This document shows positions 12,415-22,316 of a stretch of DNA of 40,034 nt, piece after piece; position 1 is the stretch's first letter, and each line of letters starts with the position of its first letter. Position numbers and translations under genes: made by a program. Source of the DNA: Patescibacteria group bacterium (GTDB taxonomy: Bacteria; Patescibacteriota; Minisyncoccia; Phycocordibacterales; UBA9973); assembly GCA_030916965.1 (NCBI GenBank), contig JAUPVQ010000025.1:1-40034 (forward strand). Direction: 5' to 3'. The notes below the pieces were generated by a model. That model ran no database searches. It saw only the letters and a program-made list of their open reading frames with translations, and was not told the DNA's origin.

Positions 12415-13101
12415 ATGAATAAAAAAATCATTGTTTCTTTGCTCACTATAGTTTTATTTGTTGGTGGTTTGTTTGCATTACTTAAATTGAATGTTGATAA
12501 AACTCTTAAAGATACGACAGATATTTATAATAATAATGAAAATGAAAATGAAAATGAAAGTAACACAAAATCCGTTAAGACGTATATATCATCAAAATTA
12601 GGCATAAGTTTTACTTATCCTGAAAAGATAAACTTTGTTTTTGGTTCTCCAACATTTGGAAATGAAGCACAGGGCAGTCTCTCTTTTATGTTTAGAGAAG
12701 AAGGTAATAAGCTTTATATTATAGGTGATATAAAAGAAGAACAGACAGAAAGACAACCCTCTCAAGGAGATGAATATTTTATAGAATTTTTTTCCAAGAA
12801 AGATAAAGAAACTTTTAAAGAAGCTATAGAAAACCAATTTTTGAAAGGGAATAAAATTTGTTTTGTGGACAACCCATCAAAAGATATATATGTTCTTTCT
12901 CTTATTCCAGAGGAAGCCGCAAAATTTGAAATAGGAGATTCATTTTGTAATGCTACAAAATACGGAGATGGCTATTTTTCCATTCTTAGTAGCAATAGAT
13001 ATATGTTTGTGCAATCTAGTGGACAAGAGCCTTACTTTGGACAAGGAGATGTTATGGAATTTTGGCCACCTGTACTTAATAAAAATCTTAAGTTGCAATA
13101 A
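12415..13101 (+). CDS. N-terminally anchored extracytoplasmic protein, unknown
   Basis: A 228-residue protein with a basic N-terminus and one hydrophobic segment (IIVSLLTIVLFVGGLFALL), then a polar linker with NENENENE and a C-terminal globular part facing outside (YISSKLGISFTYPEKINFVF and onwards). The YxSxxxGxSFxYP pattern is common in surface proteins of CPR bacteria; I cannot assign a function. The linker is encoded by four tandem AATGAA hexamers. Convergent with thrS, sharing one terminator. Confidence 0.65.
   Translation: MNKKIIVSLLTIVLFVGGLFALLKLNVDKTLKDTTDIYNNNENENENESNTKSVKTYISSKLGISFTYPEKINFVFGSPTFGNEAQGSLSFMFREEGNKLYIIGDIKEEQTERQPSQGDEYFIEFFSKKDKETFKEAIENQFLKGNKICFVDNPSKDIYVLSLIPEEAAKFEIGDSFCNATKYGDGYFSILSSNRYMFVQSSGQEPYFGQGDVMEFWPPVLNKNLKLQ
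12535..12558 (+). repeat. hexanucleotide microsatellite (AATGAA)x4
   Basis: Four perfect AATGAA units in frame, encoding Asn-Glu repeats in the linker of the anchored protein. Unit loss or gain would keep the frame. Confidence 0.9.
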
Positions 13102-13121
13102 AATTCTACAAAAATTAAAAT

Positions 13122-13150
13122 AAAAAACCGCTCGTTACGAGCGGTTTTTT
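13122..13150. terminator. bidirectional terminator; thrS stop codon in its loop
   Basis: Stem AAAAAACCGCTCG / CGAGCGGTTTTTT with loop TTA. The loop is, on the minus strand, the TAA stop of thrS, so the last thrS codons form one arm. Confidence 0.9.
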
Positions 13151-14874
13151 ATTTCTTTTTCTAAATGCTCTATAAATTCATCTTGGGACATTTGGATTTT
13201 TGTGCCGTCTATTTTCTCTATTGTTAGATTTCCACTTTCGATTTCTTTATCTCCTAGGACTATGATGTATGGAGTGTTGTATTTCTTTGCATGGTGGATT
13301 CTTTTGCCCAATGATTCATTGCTACTGATTTTCTCTACACGAATAAATTTATTGATAAGGGTATCAAATAGTTTAGTTGCAGCTTCGTCGTGATTCTCTC
13401 GGACAGGAATGATTGCAACTTGTATTGGAGATAGCCATGTAGGGAACTTACCAGCGATATGTTCGATGAGTACAGACATGAATCTGTCGATTGATCCCAT
13501 GATCGCAGCGTGAATCATTACAACTCTTTCTTTTTCACCTTTTTCATTTGTACAATTAAGATCGAAACGTTCTGGCATATTCATATCGAGCTGGATTGTC
13601 GCTACTTGCCATTCACGGCCGATAGCATCTTTGGCCATAAAATCAAGCTTAGGACCATAAAATGCAGCTTCACCAACACCTTCAAATGTCTCTACACCCT
13701 TCTCGACTGCTAGATTTGTGAGAGTTTGTTCAGCTAATACCCACTTCTCTTTATCACCAATATAATTATTGAAATTTTCCGGGTCATGTTTAGAGATACG
13801 AACACGCAATTCGAATCCAAAAGTTTTGTAAAAAGCTTGTACAATATCAAAAACTTTCAGGAATTCCTCGCGAGTTTGGTCCATACGACAGAATACATGA
13901 GCATCGTCTTGTGTAAAAGCACGCAAGCGTGAAAGTCCAGACAATTCACCAGATTGTTCGTCGCGATAGCATGTAGTTGTGTTGGCGTATCTCTGAGGAA
14001 GCTCTTTGTAACTCCAAGGTTTGCGGTCGAAAATTTGAGTGTGGTGTGGACAGTTCATCGGCTTCATTGCAAATTCGTGGCCCTCACGAGACGTCACATG
14101 GAAGAGGTCATCTTTGAATTTATCCCAGTGACCACTCTTCTCATATAATTCTTTTTTTGTAATATGTGGAATTTCTACTTTTTCATAGCCTGCACTTTTT
14201 CTTAATTCCCAAACATATTCATCGAGTAAGTTGCGCACCATTGTACCGCGTGGTGTCCAGAGTGGAAGTCCCGGGCCAATAAGATCTGAGAATGTAAACA
14301 AATCTAATTCCTTACCCAATTTTTTATGGTCGCGAGCGTGAGCTTCGTCACGGCGATCAGTATACGCATCTAAATCATTTTTGTTTTCGAATGCCAATCC
14401 ATACACGCGAGTGAGCATTTTGTTCTTTTCATCACCACGCCAGTACGCGCCTGCCACTCGGTCGAGCTTCCAGCCAGCCATATCAATATCACCCATATTT
14501 TCTACATGGCCGCCACGACATAGATCTGTAAACGATCCCGAAGTGTATAGAGTTATCTCTTCACCCTTATCCTTGATTCCATCTATTAGTTCATTTTTAT
14601 ATTCATTTTCAGAAAATGTTGATTTAGCAGAACTTTCACTTACCACTTCTTTTTCAAAAGTTGACCAAGACTTTATTTGTATACGCATTTCGGCTTCAAT
14701 CTTTACAAGATCATCTTCGTGTATTTTGCCTACAATATCTACATCATAGTAGAATCCGTTGTCGATAGCAGGACCAAGCGTTAATTTGCTCCCGGGATAA
14801 AGCTTCATCAAAGAAGAGCCCAATAAATGGGCGAGTGAGTGGCGTATATGAGCCAATTTTTCAGTATTTTCCAT
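13135..14874 (-). CDS. thrS: threonyl-tRNA synthetase without TGS domain
   Basis: A 579-residue class II synthetase (usual length about 640). It begins directly with the editing domain (HSLAHLLGSSL for HxxxH, then CRGGH), so the N-terminal TGS domain is missing. The catalytic core has the zinc Cys/His in MNCPHHTQIF, class II motif 2 around RYANTTTCYRDEQSGEL and motif 3 GSIDRFM; the C-terminal anticodon-binding domain follows (PIQVAIIPV to IVLGDKE). The frame is open a further 18 codons upstream, but a TATTAT -10 box lies 6 nt before MENTEKLAH, so ATG 14874 is taken as the start. The first 16 nt of the gene are the same as those of pheS. Confidence 0.94.
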   Translation of the reverse strand: MENTEKLAHIRHSLAHLLGSSLMKLYPGSKLTLGPAIDNGFYYDVDIVGKIHEDDLVKIEAEMRIQIKSWSTFEKEVVSESSAKSTFSENEYKNELIDGIKDKGEEITLYTSGSFTDLCRGGHVENMGDIDMAGWKLDRVAGAYWRGDEKNKMLTRVYGLAFENKNDLDAYTDRRDEAHARDHKKLGKELDLFTFSDLIGPGLPLWTPRGTMVRNLLDEYVWELRKSAGYEKVEIPHITKKELYEKSGHWDKFKDDLFHVTSREGHEFAMKPMNCPHHTQIFDRKPWSYKELPQRYANTTTCYRDEQSGELSGLSRLRAFTQDDAHVFCRMDQTREEFLKVFDIVQAFYKTFGFELRVRISKHDPENFNNYIGDKEKWVLAEQTLTNLAVEKGVETFEGVGEAAFYGPKLDFMAKDAIGREWQVATIQLDMNMPERFDLNCTNEKGEKERVVMIHAAIMGSIDRFMSVLIEHIAGKFPTWLSPIQVAIIPVRENHDEAATKLFDTLINKFIRVEKISSNESLGKRIHHAKKYNTPYIIVLGDKEIESGNLTIEKIDGTKIQMSQDEFIEHLEKEIKNRS

Positions 14875-16864: not shown

Positions 16865-17552
16865 TTTCTCACAATTTGAAAAGAAGACTGGAATAATATT
16901 TAATGACAAAAAGCTCCTAGAACAAGCCTTTATTCATCGTTCATATATCAATGAGAATTCTGGTAACAAAATTTCGCACAACGAACGACTGGAATTCCTC
17001 GGTGATGCAGTGCTTGAGCTTGTTGTGACAAGCTATCTATATACAAAATATCCTGACAGAGACGAAGGGGAATTGACAGCATACCGCTCATCGCTTGTGA
17101 ATGCTGTGATAGTGGGTGAAGTAGCAAGTGAACTCGCCATGAATGAATTCCTCTTACTTTCACGCGGAGAGGCCAAGGATATGGGCAAGGCTCGCACATA
17201 CATACTCGCAAATACATACGAGGCATATGTGGGTGCTGTGTATCTCGACCAGGGTTATGAGGTTGCACGAGATTTCATTACAAAAACTATTTTGACCAAA
17301 CTTGATGAAATAGTAGAGAAGAAGTTGTGGCGCGATGCCAAGAGTCTAGTTCAAGAAAAATGCCAAGAGTACGAAGGTGTTACACCTGCTTACAAAGTCC
17401 TCAACGAAGCGGGCCCTGATCATGACAAGCACTTTACTGTAGGAATATTTTTCGGAAATTCACGTGTTGCAGAGGGTAAAGGCAAGAGTAAACAAGAGGC
17501 CGAGCAAGCCGCAGCGCGCAATGCATTAGAAATAAAAAATTGGCTCGATTAA
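16857..17552 (+). CDS. rnc: ribonuclease III
   Basis: A 231-residue enzyme with an N-terminal endonuclease domain and a C-terminal dsRNA-binding domain (DAKSLVQEKCQEYEG to GKGKSKQEAEQAAARNAL). The signature is NERLEFLGDAVLEL, with E43, E46 and D50, and E122 in NTYEAYVGAVYLD. At the position of the catalytic-site Asp (E. coli D114) there is Asn (N119). It processes rRNA and other double-stranded RNA. The ATG lies inside the end of nusB (8-bp overlap), so translation is coupled. smc follows after 2 nt, the usual rnc-smc order. Confidence 0.94.
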   Translation: MIDFSQFEKKTGIIFNDKKLLEQAFIHRSYINENSGNKISHNERLEFLGDAVLELVVTSYLYTKYPDRDEGELTAYRSSLVNAVIVGEVASELAMNEFLLLSRGEAKDMGKARTYILANTYEAYVGAVYLDQGYEVARDFITKTILTKLDEIVEKKLWRDAKSLVQEKCQEYEGVTPAYKVLNEAGPDHDKHFTVGIFFGNSRVAEGKGKSKQEAEQAAARNALEIKNWLD

Positions 17553-17554
17553 AT

Positions 17555-19816
17555 ATGTTGATGCTAAAAAATATAGAATTGAATGGTTTCAAATCTTTCG
17601 GTAAGAAAAGTATCGTCAATTTTACTACACCGATTACATCTATTGTAGGACCAAACGGTTCAGGAAAAAGTAATATTGTAGAAGCAATCCGATTCGTATT
17701 AGGTGAACAATCTATGAAGTCACTTCGTGGAAAGGGAGGAGTGGATTTGATATTCAAAGGTAGCAAGATAATGCCAAAGGCCAATCGCGCATCAGTTGCG
17801 ATTGTTTTTGATAATAGTAAAAAGAAATTCAACTTTACCAACAGTGGACTTGGAGTACCACTTGATTATGATGAGATCACAATAATGCGTGAAGTCGTAA
17901 CAGATGGGGTAAATAAATACAGTATCAATGGCACTGATGTGAGGCTGAAAGATATTGTGGATTTGCTTGCATCGGTCAATATTGGTAGCTCAGGGCACCA
18001 TATAATCTCGCAAGGGGAGGCGGACCGTGTACTCAATGCATCGAGCAAGGATCGCCGAGCAATGATCGAAGACGCATTGGGCTTGAAAATATACCAATAC
18101 AGAATAAAAGAAAGTGAAAGGAAGCTCGAGAAAACAAATATAAATATGAAAGAAGTGCAGTCACTTCGCCGGGAGATTGCACCACATATTAATTTCCTAA
18201 AGAAGCAGGTGGAAAAGATAGAGAAGGCTCAGTCGCTACGTGGAGAACTTGCAGTACTTTTCAAAGATTATCTATCACGCGAATCTTTTTATATACAAAA
18301 TGAAAACAAGAGATTGAATAATTTGCGCCGAGTTTCGGATGAGAAAATCTTGGTAATAGACAATCGTATAGCCGAGCTACCAAGTAGCAATTCCGTGCAA
18401 TCAAATGCGAGCGTGGAGAAGAATCGATTGTCTGAACAATTGCGCAAAACTAATTCTTCGCTTTCGGATCTGGCACGAGCACTCGGACGACTAGAGGGGA
18501 TGATCGATGGAGCGCACGATGTGGTCAAGCAAGAAGAGACTGTAAAAGGTGCTGTCCCACGCTATGAATGGGACAACTTGATCAATCTCTGTGAAGAAGA
18601 GATTAACAAAATGCTCGAGAGTGAGGATGTATCAATGGTCCACAACACTTTGCGTGCTCTGAAAGAGCGATTGAAAGTATTGCGAGACGGAGAGAGTAAT
18701 ACGATAGAGGAAGGTCAAAATAATGATATAAAGAATCGTATTGCAACATTGGAAGCTGAGCGCGAAAATATCCAAAGAGAAATAGAGAATCTAAAAAAAG
18801 AAGAAATTGAAATCCGAGAGAAGATTAAAGTTTGTGACGAGGAAGATAAGCAAGTTTCCGAATCACTTCGCGAAGGGGAGCGTATGCGCTATGAGCTCAT
18901 GCGGGAAAAGAATGAAGCAGTATCTGATCTACATGCACTCAAGTACGAAGAAGAGAAATTAAATCAAAACAAAAATATTTTTGAAAGTGATAGTCAAGAG
19001 GCCAATGCACTCGTCGGTATAGAGATGGTAAATTTAGAAAATACTGTAGAGAATTTAGACGTGCCTCGTATCGAGCAAGAGGAAGCTCGTCGCAAAATCG
19101 AACGAATTAAAATCAGGTTGGAAGATGCGGGTATAGGTAGTAGCTCAGAGACACTGAAAGAGTACAACGATACCGTTGAGCGCGATCAATTCCTAGCAAA
19201 AGAATTGGAAGACTTGGCAAATAGTGTCGTAACACTGAAGAAAATAATTGTAGACCTCAAAGATACACTCGATACAGAATTCAAAACTGGTGTGGAGAAG
19301 ATCAATAAACAATTTCAAGAATTCTTTGCACTTATGTTCGGAGGAGGATCGGCATTCCTATCTATCGTACTCGAGCACAAAAAGGTCCGTAAAGATGAAG
19401 ACGTAGAGGATATGACAGAAGGAGAAGGGGAAGAAGATGACGGCACAGAGCTCGCATTTGAGCGCGGAATCGAAATCAATGTTTCCTTACCACAAAAGAA
19501 AGTGAAAGATCTGCATATGCTATCTGGAGGAGAGAGATCTCTAACATCTATTGCGCTCTTATTCGCAATGTCACAAGTTAATCCACCACCATTCCTCGTG
19601 CTCGACGAGACAGATGCCGCACTCGACGAAGCCAACTCTCGCAAGTATGGCAACATGCTTGAGAACCTTTCCAAGTATTCACAACTGATCGTAGTAACTC
19701 ACAATAGGGAAACAATGTCTCGTGCCCAAGTCCTCTACGGAGTAACAGTCGGAGCCGAAGGTGCATCCAAGCTCCTCTCCATCAAACTCGAAGACGCGAG
19801 CCTTTACGCGAAATAA
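17555..19816 (+). CDS. smc: short SMC chromosome-segregation ATPase without visible hinge
   Basis: About 753 residues, against about 1150-1200 for normal SMC. The N-terminal head has MLKNIELNGFKSFG, Walker A GPNGSGKSN and HHIISQGEADRVL; the C-terminal head has the signature LSGGERSLTSIALLFA, Walker B FLVLDETDAALDE and VVTHNRETM. Between them are heptad-rich coiled-coil stretches, but I see no conserved hinge sequence; the middle (RALGRLEGMIDGAHDV to EEEINKML) could at most be a minimal turn. An acidic loop (DVEDMTEGEGEEDDG) precedes the signature. Start is ATG 17555 or 17561, just after the rnc stop. Its last 16 sense codons recur at 20964-21011. It might act more like a compact SbcC/RecN-type tether. 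Confidence 0.88.
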   Translation: MLMLKNIELNGFKSFGKKSIVNFTTPITSIVGPNGSGKSNIVEAIRFVLGEQSMKSLRGKGGVDLIFKGSKIMPKANRASVAIVFDNSKKKFNFTNSGLGVPLDYDEITIMREVVTDGVNKYSINGTDVRLKDIVDLLASVNIGSSGHHIISQGEADRVLNASSKDRRAMIEDALGLKIYQYRIKESERKLEKTNINMKEVQSLRREIAPHINFLKKQVEKIEKAQSLRGELAVLFKDYLSRESFYIQNENKRLNNLRRVSDEKILVIDNRIAELPSSNSVQSNASVEKNRLSEQLRKTNSSLSDLARALGRLEGMIDGAHDVVKQEETVKGAVPRYEWDNLINLCEEEINKMLESEDVSMVHNTLRALKERLKVLRDGESNTIEEGQNNDIKNRIATLEAERENIQREIENLKKEEIEIREKIKVCDEEDKQVSESLREGERMRYELMREKNEAVSDLHALKYEEEKLNQNKNIFESDSQEANALVGIEMVNLENTVENLDVPRIEQEEARRKIERIKIRLEDAGIGSSSETLKEYNDTVERDQFLAKELEDLANSVVTLKKIIVDLKDTLDTEFKTGVEKINKQFQEFFALMFGGGSAFLSIVLEHKKVRKDEDVEDMTEGEGEEDDGTELAFERGIEINVSLPQKKVKDLHMLSGGERSLTSIALLFAMSQVNPPPFLVLDETDAALDEANSRKYGNMLENLSKYSQLIVVTHNRETMSRAQVLYGVTVGAEGASKLLSIKLEDASLYAK

Positions 19817-19827
19817 CTTTAAAAAAT

Positions 19828-20205
19828 ATGAAAACAAAAATCTTACTAGTTATTATTTTAATCTTAATCATTGCTCTTTTTATAACCAACAAGAAAGTTG
19901 TCATTATTCCTTTTTCTAATACTGTTACGTTGATCGCAGTAGAGGATACTTCTGGTGGCGTCCTTACTGGAGGAAATTCTCAGTATTATAATGTGTCTAT
20001 CAACGCATCTTCCTCGCTCGGGACTTCAGTGATTACTATTGTGTATGATACTTGGGCAGTGGTCCCAAACCCTGTAGTAGAAGAGCGCAAAATTGAACAG
20101 ACTATCACTATTAACCAAGGTGAAAATTTAATTGGGAAACTGGTAATTGGAAAAATCACTAAAGTGTTAGTAAATGGTAAGGAAATTCCATTTAAACAAA
20201 AATAA
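19828..20205 (+). CDS. small N-terminally anchored protein, unknown
   Basis: A 125-residue protein with a basic start and a long hydrophobic segment (ILLVIILILIIALFI), then a strand-rich extracytoplasmic part (VTLIAVEDTSGGVLTGG, SSLGTSVITIVYDTWAVV, GENLIGKLVIGKITKVLVNG). I do not recognise a family. It begins 11 bp after the smc stop with no evident promoter, and lies in a segment that looks inserted between smc and a relic of the smc 3' end, together with the RAYT gene. Confidence 0.6.
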   Translation: MKTKILLVIILILIIALFITNKKVVIIPFSNTVTLIAVEDTSGGVLTGGNSQYYNVSINASSSLGTSVITIVYDTWAVVPNPVVEERKIEQTITINQGENLIGKLVIGKITKVLVNGKEIPFKQK

Positions 20206-20212
20206 TAAACAA

Positions 20213-20237
20213 TTCCGCTAGGCAAGACCTAGCGGAA
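20213..20237 (+). repeat. REP-like palindrome, left copy
   Basis: Perfect 10-bp arms TTCCGCTAGG / CCTAGCGGAA with loop CAAGA. The core (CCGCTAGG, loop, CCTAGCGG and following AAA) is the same as the right copy at 20924-20944. It may also end transcription of the upstream gene. Confidence 0.92.
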
Positions 20238-20252
20238 AAATAGCAAACAGTT

Positions 20253-20258
20253 TATAAT
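20253..20258 (+). promoter_or_regulatory. -10 box (TATAAT) of the RAYT gene
   Basis: TATAAT, then CAGTAT (6 nt) and ATG 20265; lies just after the left palindrome. Confidence 0.6.
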
Positions 20259-20264
20259 CAGTAT

Positions 20265-20930
20265 ATGTCTATACGAAAAGTAAACCTAGTTCCGGGTGAA
20301 TATTATCACATATACAATCGTGGAAATAGTAAACAAAAGATTTTTAATGATAATGAAGATTATTTGAGATTTTTAGGTTTACTATTTGCTTGCAATCAAG
20401 AAGCAAACTTCAAGATTGATAATTTAAATAAAGGCCAAAATTTATACGATATAGATAGATCCAAACAACTAGTTTCTATTGGCAGTTATTGTTTAATGCC
20501 AAATCATTTTCACCTAATCATTACAGATACTAGAGAAGGTAATATTAGTAAGTTCATGCAAAAAGTTACAACTGCTTATGTTATGTATTACAATAAAAAA
20601 TATAAAAGGACTGGTAGTTTATTTGAGGGAAAATTTAAATCACAACATGCAGGAACAAATAAGTATCTGAAGTATCTTTTTGCATATACTCATTTAAATC
20701 CCGTAAAGTTGATAGATAGCGATTGGAAAGAAAAGGGGATTAAAAATAAAAAAGAAACACTTGAATATTTACATAAATATGCATATTCTAGTTTTCTTGA
20801 CTATGCGGGAGCAGAGCGAGTTCAAAGTAAAATCTTAAGTAGAAAAGATTTCCCTGATTATTTTCCGAGTAAAAATTTGTTCCAAAAGGAAATTTTTGAA
20901 TGGCTTTCGTATGGCGATGTATCCCGCTAG
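20265..20930 (+). CDS. REP-associated tyrosine transposase (RAYT, IS200-like Y1 family)
   Basis: A 221-residue Y1 HUH nuclease. It starts RKVNLVPGEYYHIYNRGNSKQ, typical of the family, and has the metal-binding HxH in CLMPNHFHLII (H81, H83). The catalytic tyrosine is expected in TTAYVMYYNKKY (Y105-Y109), followed by TGSLFEGKFKS and YLFAYTHLNPVK. RAYTs are domesticated single-copy relatives of IS200 transposases that bind and cleave REP hairpins. Here the gene lies between two copies of the same palindrome, and the last three bases of coding sequence plus the TAG stop are inside the right one. All motifs are intact, so it could be active. Confidence 0.9.
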   Translation: MSIRKVNLVPGEYYHIYNRGNSKQKIFNDNEDYLRFLGLLFACNQEANFKIDNLNKGQNLYDIDRSKQLVSIGSYCLMPNHFHLIITDTREGNISKFMQKVTTAYVMYYNKKYKRTGSLFEGKFKSQHAGTNKYLKYLFAYTHLNPVKLIDSDWKEKGIKNKKETLEYLHKYAYSSFLDYAGAERVQSKILSRKDFPDYFPSKNLFQKEIFEWLSYGDVSR

Positions 20931-20944
20931 GCAAGACCTAGCGG
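20924..20944 (+). repeat. REP-like palindrome, right copy, containing the RAYT stop codon
   Basis: CCGCTAGG / CCTAGCGG with loop CAAGA, the same core and orientation as the left copy. TAG at 20928-20930 is the RAYT stop. Confidence 0.92.
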
Positions 20945-20963
20945 AAAGGAAGAATATAACAAT

Positions 20964-21017
20964 TCAAAGCTACTCTCTATAAAACTCGAAGACGCGAGCC
21001 TTTACGCGAAATCCTAA
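20964..21017 (+). pseudogene. relic of an smc 3' end
   Basis: Bases 20964-21011 match smc 19766-19813 at 44 of 48 positions; the last 29 are the same. In frame it reads SKLLSIKLEDASLYAK, then Ser and stop, and all four differences are synonymous. The rest of smc is absent. It sits just before a good terminator, which may be the original smc terminator. Confidence 0.85.
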
Positions 21018-21212: not shown

Positions 21213-22316
21213 ATGTTTTTACTAAAAAAACAAGTTTTGTTCGCCGTACTTTTATGTATCGGCCTGGGTGTTGCAGCACAACAACACACGAGTGTTAATC
21301 CGAATTTTTCACACTTTGGAATGCAGACAAGGTATTATCATGTTGGGCCTGGGGATAACCTATGGAACCTAGCAGGAAAACTTTATGGTGATCCAACAAT
21401 GTGGAGACGCCTTGCGGAAGAGAATGGTTTGTCTGATGAGGTCTTTAAAGGCCCAAAAGGTAAGTACAACAAAAACCAGGAATATTGTCCTCTGGATGAA
21501 TCTTTGGTTTTAAAATACTACACCTTCGGTGACACCTCTGAGGTTGCTCCAATTCAAACTCCAACTCAAAAGGATGAAGCTTTAGTTCCTCCCGTACCAC
21601 TTGAGGATGGAAATGCAGACACAATTGCATTATGGGTGATAGCTTCACTTATGGGCTTAATTATTCTTTTGTATCTTATTTCAAGGTTCAGAAGGGAAAA
21701 AAAGGAGAGGGAAGCAGATCCAGTTGGGTCTGGTGCACCTCAGGTAGTTGGAGGCGTGGATGAAGCAAATGCTACACAGAGAATTATGAACATTGCAGAG
21801 GCAAGAGGAATGACTCCACTTAGAGTGACAAACATTCAAAGAGGAAGATTGTTCGGTCGTGGTAATGTATCGTACGCTGATGTACCATCTGGTTTAACCA
21901 AAAGGTTTACTGGTGAAGTAGGTTATAGGGGAATTATCCTTCGTACAGACGCAACACAGGAAACTATCTACTTCCTTCAAGGTTGCGGAAATGATGCGCA
22001 GGAAAAATTTTTCACTAACCTTCGATTTGTTGCCGATGAAATTCAACCCGAAGCATTCAGAGCTTACAATGAGGAACATCGTGTTCCAATTGTAGATTCT
22101 ACTGAAGAGCAAAAAGGTAGCACTATCGAGCCAGCGCCAAAACCGTTCAATTCAAAAGAACAAACTTTTGTTCTTGCGGATAAAATTATCGAAAAAGGTT
22201 TAGAAACTTACTTTGAGGTTTCGATTGACGGTATGAAGTTCAAACTTGATACCACCACTCAAAAGAAAAATCAGGTGAAGCAGGTAAAACCTTCTGATAA
22301 ACCGTCCGCTGAGTAA
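21213..22316 (+). CDS. LysM-domain membrane protein
   Basis: A 367-residue protein with an N-terminal signal-like segment (LLKKQVLFAVLLCIGLGVAAQQ), a LysM domain (YYHVGPGDNLWNLAGKLYGD, then MWRRLAEENGL), a proline-rich linker and a transmembrane helix (TIALWVIASLMGLIILLYLI) followed by a basic stretch RFRREKKERE. The rest (about 200 residues) would be cytoplasmic if the helix runs out-to-in. LysM binds peptidoglycan, so the protein may link the wall to the cytoplasmic face. The cytoplasmic domain is not recognised. It has its own strong promoter, long leader and terminator. Confidence 0.75.
   Translation: MFLLKKQVLFAVLLCIGLGVAAQQHTSVNPNFSHFGMQTRYYHVGPGDNLWNLAGKLYGDPTMWRRLAEENGLSDEVFKGPKGKYNKNQEYCPLDESLVLKYYTFGDTSEVAPIQTPTQKDEALVPPVPLEDGNADTIALWVIASLMGLIILLYLISRFRREKKEREADPVGSGAPQVVGGVDEANATQRIMNIAEARGMTPLRVTNIQRGRLFGRGNVSYADVPSGLTKRFTGEVGYRGIILRTDATQETIYFLQGCGNDAQEKFFTNLRFVADEIQPEAFRAYNEEHRVPIVDSTEEQKGSTIEPAPKPFNSKEQTFVLADKIIEKGLETYFEVSIDGMKFKLDTTTQKKNQVKQVKPSDKPSAE

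Follow-up and report, generated by a model that had tools for sequence, protein, structure and literature searches.

Described RAYT systems and the element in the window

REP/RAYT systems have been described mainly from larger genomes, and the REPs of proteobacteria usually exceed 100 copies per genome. REPtrons built on GTAG REPs occur mainly in Proteobacteria and comprise subclasses 2.2, 2.4, and 2.5 (PMC3733652; PMC6006769). Y---N is the signature of TnpAREP proteins, Y---Q that of IS200 enzymes, and an enrichment of RAYT-type genes in large genomes has been reported (PMC6006769). In RAYT group 5 (subclass 2.6) of Bacteroidetes, the gene is flanked by atypical hairpins that recur at other places in the genome (PMC6006769), and in TIRtrons a RAYT-like gene (TIRYT) lies between matched terminal repeats unlike GTAG REPs, some of these repeats being self-complementary and dispersed (PMC3733652). 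Among the Rickettsia palindromic elements (RPE), RPE-4 and RPE-6 belong to the CGTC class and have no associated transposase (PMC3733652).

We analyzed a stretch of 40,034 nt (hereafter the window) from a Patescibacteria genome of 730 kb (0.73 Mb; 42 contigs), the genome-wide work on this host being based on pattern searches and sequence stretches. The host is related to Ca. Nomurabacteria, and the nearest named relatives of its RAYT are found chiefly in Candidatus Nomurabacteria. An intact RAYT-like gene (20265..20930, + strand, 221 aa) lies between two identical 21-bp palindromes of the same orientation, CCGCTAGG-CAAGA-CCTAGCGG, the left one at 20215..20235 (+ strand; its perfect stem reaches 20213-20237) and the right one at 20924..20944 (+ strand). 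This arrangement had been proposed in an earlier note on this DNA, and it was right in every detail as judged by coordinates and by an exact-match search, which returned these two + strand copies and no others in the whole window; allowing up to three mismatches, no further palindrome was found there (mean of 100 shuffles, 0.00). The likeness of the two sides runs beyond the palindrome to 27 nt (ATYCCGCTAGGCAAGACCTAGCGGAAA) at 96%, and single-stranded DNA folding of the two palindromes gave z of -7.4 and -5.3 relative to shuffled sequence. The two loops share one orientation here and are inverted with respect to each other in many relatives. The reading frame ends in ...GTA TCC CGC TAG; as the note had also read, the last Arg codon and the stop (20928..20930, + strand) are supplied by the right palindrome, the TAG lying in its stem. 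An Rfam scan of 15-25 kb of the window gave no family match, and comparison with PHROGs gave no meaningful match.

The assignment of the product to the RAYT-type HuH/Y1 proteins was borne out by domain, motif, and fold. The protein matched Pfam Y1_Tnp (PF01797) at 6.5e-9, and its HFH motif (residues 81-83, H81-x-H83), catalytic Tyr141, and Asn145 were invariant across an alignment of 52 sequences (the window protein and 51 relatives), such that the Y---Q motif of IS200/IS605 is absent from all of them. The AlphaFold model (pLDDT 92) found its top fold match in 4er8, the E. coli RAYT with its REP hairpin (Foldseek E 1.7e-6), and the VIA fold comparison gave Z 14.6 over 154 aa for 4er8 versus Z 9.3 over 102 for IS608; by Foldseek and VIA together the model is nearer to RAYT than to IS608 or ISDra2. 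A resemblance to Thg1-type proteins (Z about 7) was taken as a shared palm-like arrangement and rejected as kinship. The sole NCBIfam family match was REP_Tyr_transpos, at 38.3 bits, below its equivalog cut-off of 80 bits.

We read the system as a GTAG-less REPtron, namely a domesticated or semi-mobile gene for a RAYT (TnpAREP)-type ssDNA nuclease flanked on either side by cognate hairpins of its own, and give this reading a probability of about 0.82. With GTAG REPtrons it shares the HuH Y1 protein with Y---N, flanking hairpins with dispersed copies, a hairpin that overlaps the gene end and supplies the TAG, in-frame copies within genes (often DNA repair genes), and dimers. It differs from them in having no GTAG/GTGG or CGTC tag, in its conserved loop-proximal core (AGGCAAGACCT) with a variable stem, in its few copies, in its occurrence in Patescibacteria genomes of 0.5-0.9 Mb, and in scoring under the NCBIfam threshold for RAYTs. 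Among published systems, Bacteroidetes subclass 2.6 with its atypical hairpins and the TIRtrons come closest (PMC6006769; PMC3733652). The former, compared by description, belongs to a phylum different from that of the host; in contrast to the latter, every repeat here forms a short, perfect hairpin whose apex is conserved. A literature search for RAYT/REP in Patescibacteria found no linking paper, an absence that is weak evidence, and the locus looks like a REP/RAYT system spreading hairpins in a group for which none was found described. A streamlined 0.7-Mb lineage with low-copy, untagged, RAYT-matched hairpins would stand in contrast to the REP/RAYT of large genomes.

Pairing of gene and hairpins, and the spread of hairpins

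Matched hairpins recur around relatives of the gene. Among 63 distinct relatives collected from public genomes, 45 carried a palindrome on both flanks, typically 15-60 nt 5' of the start codon on one side and, on the other, at the stop or immediately beyond it. The arms differ from element to element (stems foreign to the window element include TGCGTTAGG and TGAGCTAGG), and within an element the left and right arms were 0.906 identical, against a mean of 0.567 and a maximum of 0.660 when pairs were shuffled (n = 45; 2000 shuffles). Agreement was perfect in 34 of the 45 elements (shuffled mean 3.7, maximum 11), and the pairing was kept across about 60% protein identity. The hairpin apex broadly tracks the protein tree, with CAAGA/TCTTG in most of the near clade, AAG/CTT in its neighbors, and CCG/CGG in more distant relatives. 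These 45 natural pairs of protein and stem form a ready panel for asking how a hairpin is read by its RAYT, which is hard to address in GTAG systems because their tag is constant.

The earlier note had called a gene ending within its own REP an unusual form, a description that has to be withdrawn. Of the 31 near-clade relatives with a right palindrome, 16 have the stop wholly within it, which makes this a common habit of the family, and TAG-supplying REPs had already been described (PMC3733652). The stop would come to lie there because the right hairpin abuts the gene and overlaps its 3' end, an arrangement shared by about half of the near relatives. A second RAYT of the host (contig C40), 65% identical to that of the window and with the stem ACGTTAGG, ends within its palindrome too. 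RAYT-like genes reach up to seven per genome in this 0.7-Mb lineage, and the multiple copies in a genome are divergent and occupy different loci. At one locus of a related genome (L124; G012:C1, about 12426-13810), the order is rnhB, palindrome, RAYT, palindrome, a short gene, and a third palindrome with the same stem; the short gene, which from its sequence we take to resemble a CyaB-type protein, is a possible passenger between cognate hairpins.

Isolated copies, which the note had proposed to look for, were found both in the host genome and throughout the genus. The 11-bp core AGGCAAGACCT occurs 11 times in the host, four of these copies flanking the RAYTs of the window and C40, and 118 times in 24 genomes of the genus, versus three for the reversed control. 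Beyond the genus, counts were 0-1 in most genomes, like the control, with a few exceptions (for example G456 and G494). At 71 of 91 dispersed cores the pairing continued into a stem of at least 6 bp, about 1.4 being expected by chance. The stem of a dispersed copy equaled that of its own genome's RAYT in 16 of 45 cases, whereas shuffling among genomes gave a mean of 3.9 and reached 16 in none of 5000 trials, and dispersed copies were commoner in genomes with a near-clade RAYT (one-sided p 0.007). The hairpins have spread, and they pair with the local gene.

Kinship to REPs, as the note had suggested, was upheld in this dispersal and pairing but not in the canonical tag. GTAG/GTGG stood 5' of the hairpin foot in 2 of 92 palindromes (0.6 expected by shuffling) and CGTC in 0 of 92 (0.9 expected), and around the palindromes no conserved target or tag base appeared past a weak A/T bias; conservation lies in the loop-proximal core, the stem being variable. 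Isolated hairpins outnumber full RAYT units. Against the reading as a GTAG-less REPtron stand this missing tag, the NCBIfam score below cut-off, a copy number of 0-17 cores per genome where canonical REPs often exceed 100, and the many dispersed copies for which no matching RAYT was found in the same genome.

REPIN-like inverted dimers were present in two genomes, G014 and G003; one locus of the latter (L149, contig C32) holds two copies of such dimers with a CAAAGG-type palindrome, 33 nt apart, and no RAYT with a stem of this type was found in that genome. Some dispersed copies of the ATCTTACAGG type, with A-tract/T-tract flanks, recur in several genomes and look like old bidirectional terminators. 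Another palindrome, lengthened by A/T tracts and straight after what we take from its sequence to be a Clp-type ATPase gene (L077; G000:C24:10328), looks to have been taken over as a transcription terminator.

Homology with characterized enzymes suggests how hairpins might spread. The Y1 protein would bind its own hairpin as ssDNA, for example on the lagging-strand template, recognizing the apex through the conserved loop-proximal core AGG-CAAGA-CCT together with element-specific stem bases; cleavage and strand transfer, that is, nicking and rejoining via Tyr141, would thereby carry hairpins into new positions, some of them in frame within loops of genes.

Insertion sites and competing explanations

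The insertion site in the window is the 3' end of an smc-like gene (SMC_N; 17540..19816, + strand). Between this gene and a 49-nt remnant of its 3' end (20964..21012, + strand), which is joined to the native terminator, lie about 1.15 kb made up of an orphan ORF of 125 aa (19828..20205, + strand) and the palindrome-RAYT-palindrome unit. The remnant is 92% identical to 19766-19814, the four differences of this direct repeat all falling at third codon positions. No homologue of the orphan ORF was found by Pfam, by NCBIfam, or in 24 genomes of the genus other than the host. In the sister genome G014, the terminator and the next gene (21213..22316, + strand in the window; weak LysM match) come straight after smc, the site being empty and without palindrome, and the other relatives examined have something else downstream of smc. 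The RAYT gene is therefore not fixed at this site. The outcome that the note had set against its own reading, a palindrome found nowhere else and a gene fixed in all relatives, is not what these genomes hold, for copies are spread and the G014 site is empty; an empty site with one palindrome, its expected mark of mobility, is not what G014 holds at smc either.

Given that the insert is not bounded by the palindromes and that the empty site lacks one, transposition of the unit is no more likely at smc than recombination with donor DNA, and an insert larger than the palindrome-bounded unit makes this site no proof of whole-unit transposition. The proposal of a mobile unit thus stood as far as the hairpins are spread and the gene is not fixed, and fell short at the bounds of the unit, given the orphan ORF and the 49-nt remnant. 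A cleaner case was found in the genome G023, in which a RAYT bounded by palindromes separates rnhB from a convergent gene; the same site in G004, G009, and G013 has a terminator-like hairpin only, or nothing. This site fits a unit bounded by hairpins, the relatives being too diverged for exact ends.

The smc site also bears on a possible but unlikely explanation, in which the system is dead, the RAYT and palindromes are immobile relics, differences between sites arose by homologous recombination and loss, and the smc insert came with donor DNA. The confinement of differences between the smc 3' end of the insert and the remnant to third codon positions agrees with it, and an insert that includes an orphan ORF and has a right edge without palindrome is what homology-assisted recombination would give. 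A dead system is harder to reconcile with an intact ORF that retains its catalytic residues, with left/right pairing maintained over about 60% protein identity, and with copies specific to single genomes, such as the rnhB copy that is missing from the sister G014.

It is improbable, in our view, that the element is an IS200/IS605-like insertion sequence whose palindromes are subterminal LE/RE hairpins and whose REP-gene-REP unit transposes as ssDNA. With IS608 and ISDra2 it has in common the Y1 fold, the HuH motif, and a single Y1 gene with a hairpin at each end; the several divergent copies per genome at differing loci, and the G023 unit exactly between rnhB and the next gene, would also be expected of such an element. 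The protein departs from that family in its Y---N in place of Y---Q, in a longer C-terminal part, and in a fold nearer to RAYT. The unit departs from it as well: isolated hairpins are more numerous than full units, no near-identical pair of copies was seen in any genome (the host paralogue being the 65% one), the smc insert ends elsewhere than at the palindromes, and no unit boundaries were seen.

That the palindromes are ordinary transcription terminators flanking the gene by chance is highly improbable, and was rejected, for although some dispersed copies with A-tract/T-tract flanks lie at gene ends (as after the Clp-type gene of G000) and single copies could still be terminators, the + strand of the window runs on as AAAAATAG and AAAGGAAG without T runs, a terminator scan of the window copies gave only one match (minus strand, left copy), left and right stems covary per element and match the local RAYT, the core is highly enriched, and copies lie in frame within conserved genes.

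Palindromes within genes

Returning to the proposed GTAG-less REPtron, its hairpins lie in frame within rnhB, recJ, and a PaaX-like gene in the host genome, and within rnhA, argS, dapF, a tRNA methyltransferase-type gene, and others in relatives, the usual peptide being xRQDLx; essential genes are among those that carry them. In argS, in-frame copies of two genomes have the same loop and unlike stems. The RPE of Rickettsia offer a parallel, being palindromes that sit in frame in conserved genes where the genome is reduced, but here there is also a cognate RAYT. The copies in rnhA, rnhB, recJ, argS, and dapF add one more bacterial case to those known of a palindrome becoming part of a protein.

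Where relatives could be aligned, in-frame palindromes occupy loops of variable length. A plain insertion of 21 nt would lengthen a protein by 7 aa, whereas the change in the three alignable genes was about -1 aa (PaaX-like), +2 aa (rnhA), and +2 to +4 aa (recJ), and the palindrome-bearing loop of rnhB is no longer than that of relatives; the exact inserted bases in rnhB, recJ, rnhA, and the PaaX-like gene are unreadable, as the loops vary among relatives. Later trimming would explain such small gains, as would overwriting. From the small change in loop length one may conjecture that an apex-recognizing RAYT, having no foot tag to read, spreads hairpins by overwriting resident sequence and not by adding to it, for example through single-strand templated conversion, although we regard this as doubtful.

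Also observed was a second kind of dispersed element, about 70-90 nt long, in which variable yet paired arms flank a constant core CGCTTTACCCTAAAGGGCTCCGACGCG. Its exact core is absent from the host genome and occurs 8-12 times in each of G012, G004, and G001, and compensatory change was seen at 12 of 25 arm pairs (seven copies). It lies in frame in rnhB of many genomes of the genus (L223-L228, L230, L232, and L235; other loci are L243, L263, L130, L273, L274, and L281). At the same rnhB loop, other genomes bear a different in-frame stem-loop of the GCGAGGTCCTCGGATGAGGGAGGACGAGG type (L222, L229, L231, and L237), and one loop has thus taken unrelated palindromes.
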